NCBI RefSeq assembly: GCF_000955905.1
Contig: NZ_CP011097.1
Coordinates: 755,957-819,956, forward strand
Source: Candidatus Nitrosotenuis cloacae
Lineage (GTDB): Archaea; Thermoproteota; Nitrososphaeria; Nitrososphaerales; Nitrosopumilaceae
DNA: 64,000 nucleotides
Reading direction: 5' to 3'
Position 1 is the first letter of the stretch, and every line of letters begins with the position of its first letter. Made by a program: the position numbers and the translations under genes. Below the pieces are notes generated by a model, which saw nothing but the letters and a program-made list of their open reading frames with translations, made no database searches and had not been told where the DNA came from. Shown one piece after another: positions 5,495 to 44,744 of the stretch.

Positions 5495-6277
5495 TCAGAG
5501 TTTTGGTGGCATTATTCTCTTGTGTTGACTGTTTTTGTACATTTGATGGATTTTTTGGATTTTCTCTATTGGTATTTGTGTGGTTTTTGCAGCCTCATCT
5601 GGCGACATGGACTTGTCTACCGTACAATGTAAAATCACATCAATTGTCTCATATGGGATTCCTAATTCTTCTTCTGCCAAGTGGCCCTGCCATAGGTGTG
5701 GGCTGCTTTTTTTTGCAATGATTGAATCTTTAATCCTCAGATGCTTTGCTAATTCCCTTACCTGTGTCTTGTATAATGATGCTATTGGCAAAATATCTGC
5801 ACTACCGTCTCCAAATTTTGTAAAATACCCGATCATGTATTCGGATTTGTCACTAGACCCAATGACTAGGTAATTGCTCAAATTTGCATAATAGTATAGT
5901 ATGTTGGCCCTGATTCTTGCTCTCAGATTTCCAAGTGATCTCTGGTCAGGTTCTATAGTATTTGCAAATTGAGAATGAATCAAATTAATGTCAATCAATT
6001 TGTAGTTTAAGTGCAGACTATCCACCAAATGTAGTGCATCTTCTGTTTCATCTTTTGGCGAAACTTTACTGTCTGGCATTATTATCGCAAGTGAATTATC
6101 TTTAAACGAATTTGCGCAAATGTGTGCAATCACTGCGGAATCAATCCCACCGCTTAACCCAAAGACAAATCCTTTTGTGTTTGTCTTTGAGAGTTGCTCT
6201 TTTAGGAATGATTCTATGTTTTTTTGAATTTGTGAATAGTCTTGTTTTGTTATGCTTGATAGTATGTCTGGATTCAC
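5495..6277 (-). CDS. nadE: NAD+ synthetase, ammonia-dependent type
   Basis: A 260-residue NH3-dependent NAD synthetase that amidates deamido-NAD using ATP. It has the ATP-pyrophosphatase loop SGGIDS near residue 43 and the SSDKSEYMIGYFTKFGDG substrate segment; no glutaminase domain is present, so free ammonium is the nitrogen donor, plentiful in an ammonia oxidizer. The start is GTG at 6277 with a TATA-like box 26 bases upstream. It is the first gene of an operon with cysS. Confidence 0.95.
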   Translation of the reverse strand: MNPDILSSITKQDYSQIQKNIESFLKEQLSKTNTKGFVFGLSGGIDSAVIAHICANSFKDNSLAIIMPDSKVSPKDETEDALHLVDSLHLNYKLIDINLIHSQFANTIEPDQRSLGNLRARIRANILYYYANLSNYLVIGSSDKSEYMIGYFTKFGDGSADILPIASLYKTQVRELAKHLRIKDSIIAKKSSPHLWQGHLAEEELGIPYETIDVILHCTVDKSMSPDEAAKTTQIPIEKIQKIHQMYKNSQHKRIMPPKL

Positions 6278-44534: not shown

Positions 44535-44587
44535 TGACTAATTATTTCATAATAACCAGTTACTTATCTAAAATGATGAATTAGTTC

Positions 44588-44612
44588 TCCTACCACGTTT
44601 TTTGTGGTAGGA
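44588..44612 (+). repeat. hairpin in the 5' leader of the tRNA gene
   Basis: TCCTACCAC (44588-44596) pairs perfectly with GTGGTAGGA (44604-44612) across a GTTTTTT loop. The right arm is the tRNA's own 5' acceptor strand, so the leader copies the tRNA 3' end (TCCTACCA). Confidence 0.7.
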
Positions 44613-44694
44613 TCGGCAAGCTCGGGATGCCGACTGTTTGAAAAACAGTTTATCTGTGGCTCAGATATCGTGGGTTCAAATCCCACTCCTACCA
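44606..44694 (+). tRNA. tRNA-Phe (GAA) with a 20-base variable region
   Basis: An 89-base tRNA with a full cloverleaf. Acceptor GGTAGGA/TCCTACC, discriminator A (44694); D-arm GGCA/TGCC with a 9-base loop having A14, G15, GG and A21; anticodon stem ACTGT/ACAGT, loop TTGAAAA, anticodon GAA at 44640-44642; T-arm GTGGG-TTCAAAT-CCCAC. Bases 44650-44669 (TTATCTGTGGCTCAGATATC) make the variable region about 15 bases longer than a normal tRNA-Phe. Inside it ATCTG-TGGCT-CAGAT can pair. It is either an intron in the variable loop or a long variable arm. CCA is not encoded. Confidence 0.8.
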
Positions 44695-44744
44695 GCCTTA
44701 TCGCATTTCTGATATTAAAGTCTGATTATTTTAATTCTGAATTT

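Follow-up and report, generated by a model that had tools for sequence, protein, structure and literature searches.

The window, a stretch of 64,000 nucleotides from the genome of Candidatus Nitrosotenuis cloacae (one contig of 1,620,156 bases), carried a tRNA gene with anticodon GAA that is very probably a supernumerary class II tRNA whose body derives from tRNA-Ser; it would belong to a family found sporadically in Nitrosopumilaceae chromosomes and in a group of their tailed viruses, and would have arrived as a 210-bp insertion. Its serine-like body combined with a phenylalanine anticodon could let a wrong amino acid enter proteins, or the tRNA could do a job outside translation. The features of the locus are given below; covariance model R1 was built from two local copies and R2 from 14 copies.

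44535-44744: 210-bp insertion with the tRNA inside, separating the stop codons of the helicase and parvulin genes, which converge (from the junctions of congeners)
44568-44575, plus strand: weak TATA-like sequence CTAAAATG (position weight matrix built on the upstream regions of 40 ordinary tRNAs)
44588-44612: perfect 9-bp inverted repeat TCCTACCAC / GTGGTAGGA, allowing the leader to base-pair with the 5' strand of the acceptor (from the sequence)
44606-44694, plus strand: class II tRNA gene with long variable arm, GAA, Ser-like body and A73 (Rfam and ARAGORN; R1 109.7 bits, R2 93.3 bits)
44640-44642, plus strand: anticodon GAA within the loop TTGAAAA (from the sequence; among the 14 copies of R2, 13 have GAA and one GUC)
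44650-44669, plus strand: long variable region with the hairpin TATCTG-TGGCT-CAGATA at 44651-44667 (from the sequence; covariation in six pairs over 14 copies, no bulge-helix-bulge)

Fold of the tRNA and nature of its variable region

ARAGORN called the gene tRNA-Phe(gaa) and Rfam RF00005 matched it over the same 44606-44694 (52.7 bits, E 1.8e-8), which together with the sequence bore out the claim of an earlier note that a real tRNA with GAA, A73 and well-formed stems lies there. The acceptor (GGTAGGA/TCCTACC), D (GGCA/TGCC, with D-loop AGCTCGGGA), anticodon (ACTGT-TTGAAAA-ACAGT) and T (GTGGG-TTCAAAT-CCCAC) stems were all perfect; positions 8 and 9 were T8 and C9, and A73 was followed by G74. 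The acceptor domain comprised 7 + 5 pairs, which an optional -1:73 pair would make 8/5. The variable region of 20 nt, also noticed earlier, was read directly as TTATCTGTGGCTCAGATATC.

The earlier note had hesitated between an intron and a class II-like arm. We scanned all junctions for a bulge-helix-bulge (BHB), with controls, in the window copy and in a second (sister) long-arm GAA tRNA of the same genome (663374-663463; variable region of 21 nt, G73, one T-stem mismatch; 79% identity by BLAST). No BHB was found at any junction in the variable region of either copy, in line with the earlier failure to fit a canonical one to the extra bases, and the positive control, tRNA-Val(CAC) (G000:C1:601098-601191; L024:1501-1594), displayed a full BHB with a 20-nt variable-loop intron. 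Covariation was examined in 14 related copies, with shuffled and slid versions of the alignment as controls. In this alignment, which was fitted to the structure and favours pairing, 95.8% of the cells of the whole structure were paired vs. 69.6% in shuffles, of which 0 of 500 reached this value, and 36-45% after sliding. Changes on both sides occurred in all five helices; in the variable-arm helix they affected six of six pairs, with 90% of cells paired, and arm lengths among relatives ranged from 13 to 21 nt. Compensation extended to each stem, the variable arm included, and indicated that the arm is part of the fold. The hairpin ATCTG-TGGCT-CAGAT described earlier was present, extends to six pairs (TATCTG/CAGATA) and stands above chance by covariation. 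Of the two options the arm was borne out and the intron was not supported. A tRNA-Phe with a 15-nt variable-loop intron is scarcely credible: such an intron does occur in the tRNA-Val(CAC) of the same genome and the 15 nt are flanked by a 4-nt direct repeat (TATC), but BHB is absent from every junction scanned, the hairpin is kept by compensatory change at 13 to 21 nt like class II arms, and the body is unlike tRNA-Phe. The intron reading was rejected on the BHB scan; archaeal noncanonical (BHB) introns likewise add bases to the variable loop, whereas the window tRNA has a covarying hairpin and no BHB.

Relatives, insertion sites and viral copies

Relatives were sought in 250 Nitrosopumilaceae genomes by BLAST and then with R1 and R2, part of the listed hits being read. 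BLAST gave two relatives, one degenerate (in G220) and one partial (in G186), whereas the models gave GAA copies in the window genome G000 (2), G223 (2), G225 (2), G242, G246, G152, G238 and G134, that is, in at least eight of the 250 genomes; the relative on C15 of G225 was degenerate as well. Other non-serine anticodons occurred on similar bodies (GUC in G244, GAU in G157 and G134, CAA in G056, CAU in G142). Among the hits read, the remaining high-scoring ones of both models, and the best R2 matches after the family members, were ordinary tRNA-Ser(GCU). The loop YTGAAAA and the anticodon GAA stayed constant while all stems drifted. The discriminator was G73 in every family copy except the window copy, with A73, and position 20 was G in the window copy and A in its sister. 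Searching for the exact D-arm pattern in genome and viral contigs gave no new tRNA among the matches. A cross-family tree of these short tRNAs placed the window, sister and viral L295 copies together (0.875); its overall support was low and it was not relied on. The partial copy of G186 (L508, G186:C65, ~5880-5985) comprised the 3' part of a class II tRNA with GAA, lay immediately upstream of a DNA methyltransferase gene and close to a transposase-like gene, and looks like a recombination remnant.

The helicase-parvulin junction was readable in 15 of 16 congeners (one contig ends too early), and the gap measured 3-9 bp in 14 of these 15 and 79 bp in the most distant; relative to the congeners, the window locus had 210 bp extra. 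With the tRNA the gap was 279 bp at the site of G223, vs. 2-20 bp in most congeners, and 323 bp at that of G242, vs. mostly 11-46 bp. The inserts of G223 and G242, although at different loci, had in common the tRNA and ~27 nt of upstream sequence that takes in a TATA-like box. The presence/absence pattern extended to three chromosomal loci (window, G223, G242) and one viral site. A clear target-site duplication or terminal inverted repeat was not found at the insertion ends. As judged from these comparisons, the window tRNA is a recent, sporadic insertion and a member of a dispersed, virus-linked family. Both the G223 and G242 sites held other inserts in some congeners; in the DsbD/aminotransferase gap that carries the tRNA in G223, G247 and G243 (L679, L683) had a different insert of ~300 bp with a small acidic reading frame.

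In three IMG/VR contigs (L295, L523, L571), whose proteins were 61-78% identical to each other, the tRNA lay directly downstream of a head-protein gene. The same head-protein gene was present without a tRNA at that place in L616, L617, L619, L625 and others, indicating that the tRNA is an optional insert. Over most of its length, the viral terminase shared 36-44% identity with copies from Nitrosopumilaceae genomes (matches in some others were shorter or weaker) vs. at most about 26% with catalogued phages; from this closeness, the tailed viruses carrying the tRNA are most likely thaumarchaeal. The D-loop of the L295 copy was without G18G19. Scanning with family-specific flanks yielded no viral contigs beyond these three, BLAST against phages gave T-arm matches only, and viral pattern scans returned mostly bacterial tRNA-Ser(UGA), where TTGAAAA is one base out of register. 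Some viral contigs with bacterial-type tRNAs carried GAA on a Ser body (L509, L511, L543) or on a Leu body (L445), apparently an independent case of mismatch between body and anticodon.

Regarding the flanks, CTAAAATG sits 38 bases upstream of the window tRNA (mean of 31 in ordinary tRNAs), and its matrix score was equalled or exceeded by 2.5% of random window positions. CTCCTACCA (44587-44595) repeats the 3' end of the tRNA (44686-44694). In many copies a leader AAACC/TC and a trailer GGGTTT/GGGTCT lengthen the acceptor helix. Each of the 13 GAA/GUC copies with the common flank type, the window copy included, had G at position 74, vs. none of 40 ordinary tRNAs of this genome. Pairing of U-1 with A73 could give the window copy an 8-bp acceptor with a discriminator G; since -1:73 was pairable in 19 of the 40 ordinary tRNAs, this pairing alone is no evidence.

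Identity of the tRNA body

The label tRNA-Phe of the earlier note is probably wrong. Another tRNA-Phe gene had been named beforehand as what would count against it, and an ordinary class I tRNA-Phe(GAA) with a variable loop of 5 nt was found in the same genome (G000:C1:871480-871553); with this gene and a second long-arm copy present, the window gene is a spare. The body, the D-arm geometry and the relatives point instead to tRNA-Ser. In this genome R2 gave 74.1 bits to tRNA-Ser(GCU), 57.0 to the best tRNA-Leu and 49.8 to tRNA-Phe. The D-arm segment of the window tRNA measured 20 nt, as in local tRNA-Ser (22 in local tRNA-Leu), with a 4-bp D-stem and a 9-nt D-loop that match local tRNA-Ser; C9 also fits serine, as does G30-C40, a serine determinant (PMC9976931). 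This geometry, C9, the long arm and G30-C40 are shared with Nitrosopumilaceae tRNA-Ser, and so is G73 in nearly all family members. The differences from tRNA-Ser, which has NGA or GCU anticodons and the discriminator G73, were the GAA of the family and, in the window copy, A73 followed by G74. When the variable arm and anticodon were left out, identity was 0.64 to Thr, 0.63 to Leu and 0.62 to Ser, so that Ser was not singled out by this measure.

Two other identities were considered. As to tRNA-Leu, A73 was present, but the arm loop was TGGCT rather than A47c G47d and the D-arm had 20 instead of 22 nt. A class I tRNA-Phe has a variable loop of 4-5 nt vs. 20 nt here; from the archaeal Phe identity set (A73, G20, C13-G22 and G34 A35 A36; PMC9976931), the window copy had A73, G20 and GAA, with A-U in place of C13-G22. 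A single base (G35 to A) separates GAA from GGA, a serine anticodon, and a single base likewise CAA from CGA; the family may have originated by such a change.

Possible charging and function

SerRS ignores the anticodon and depends on the variable arm and G73, the latter holding for archaeal SerRS. With G73 in the other members and A73, G20 and GAA in the window copy, the virus-type copies look serine-accepting and the acceptance of the window copy is ambiguous, as far as their bases tell. In the explanation that we favour, the transcript would mature as a tRNA and be charged by SerRS through the variable arm, the anticodon being ignored; the virus-type copies with G73 would then act as a missense adaptor with a low level of Ser placement at UUU/UUC, probably where virus and host interact. 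The copies in chromosomes would represent viral or mobile genes that had been captured, and the window copy (A73, G20, GAA) would have shifted towards Phe acceptance or, alternatively, would keep Ser acceptance by means of an 8-bp acceptor stem (U-1:A73, with G74 as discriminator). Taken whole, with Ser-type identity and SerRS-charged missense mechanism, this explanation is held with modest confidence; the Ser-charging missense mechanism as a whole is put forward tentatively. That thaumarchaeal tailed viruses spread a Ser-charged tRNA for Phe codons, a mobile missense tRNA serving infection or conflict, and that hosts capture copies and sometimes re-tune the discriminator, is a speculative extension and unlikely to hold in full.

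Several observations go against the favoured explanation: A73 in the window copy, given the reliance of SerRS on G73; the weak and displaced promoter of the window gene; the T-stem mismatch of the sister and the loss of G18G19 in viral L295; and the pairing of leader and trailer beside the acceptor stem in several copies, which could hinder ordinary processing. Phe residues encoded by UUY in the head proteins and local helicase of carriers aligned with Phe, not Ser, in non-carriers, indicating that misreading is partial, conditional or absent. Reassignment of Phe codons in hosts or viruses was rejected on this alignment.

The constant code is also in line with a tRNA-like RNA acting outside translation, as a decoy for tRNA cleavage by host or viral enzymes, in regulation or packaging, or as integrase target. 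We consider this role rather doubtful, if the strongest of the alternatives: the acceptor helix extended beyond the tRNA in many copies (AAACC/TC ... GGGTTT), the viral copy lacking G18G19 and the partial G186 copy adjoining DNA methyltransferase and transposase-like genes agree with it, but the YTGAAAA loop and GAA were kept despite stem drift, as expected if codon reading matters, and A37 suits a tRNA for codons starting with U. It is also unlikely that the window gene is a relic in decay that now serves no function in Candidatus Nitrosotenuis cloacae; the perfect stems of the window copy and the family-wide covariation argue against decay, to which the recent and sporadic insertion, the weak promoter, the mismatched sister and the degenerate relatives (G220, G225 C15) would be suited. 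Less probable again is a functional additional tRNA-Phe that has a class II arm and is charged by PheRS through GAA, A73 and G20. These three are archaeal Phe elements (PMC9976931), A73 is unique to the window copy within the family and the sister has A20; against this, A-U replaces C13-G22, all remaining members have G73 and the genome already has a normal tRNA-Phe.

The closest known parallel is given by the allo-tRNAs (Mukai et al. 2017; PMC7609411), which are bacterial, serine-type class II tRNAs with an 8/4 or 9/3 acceptor and very diverse anticodons, some of them pseudogenes linked to transposon-like genes or not functional in translation. The window family has in common with them the Ser-type body with class II arm, the non-serine anticodon and the sporadic occurrence, but it is archaeal and viral, mostly GAA, and 7/5 (or 8/5); as the 8/4 or 9/3 acceptor is absent, we do not class it with allo-tRNAs, and the likeness is one of logic. 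The nev-tRNAs of nematodes are likewise of class II and bear anticodons for other amino acids, but they are eukaryotic, with reported Leu-type charging and no known viral link. To our knowledge, natural cases of a tRNA body at odds with its anticodon are rare beyond bacterial allo-tRNAs and a few eukaryotes, and no archaeal or archaeal-virus counterpart was found in the open-access literature searched, the coverage of which was partial. A mobile family that keeps a Phe anticodon and its fold, occurs in viruses and leaves the code unchanged makes the question of a natural missense tRNA or a tRNA mimic in archaeal virus-host conflict testable in cultured ammonia oxidisers. It also sets an annotation trap, as its genes get labelled tRNA-Phe. 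In a separate gene, the 'tRNA-Ile(aat)' called by ARAGORN at L007:1666-1789 is probably a tRNA-Leu(UAA) with introns.
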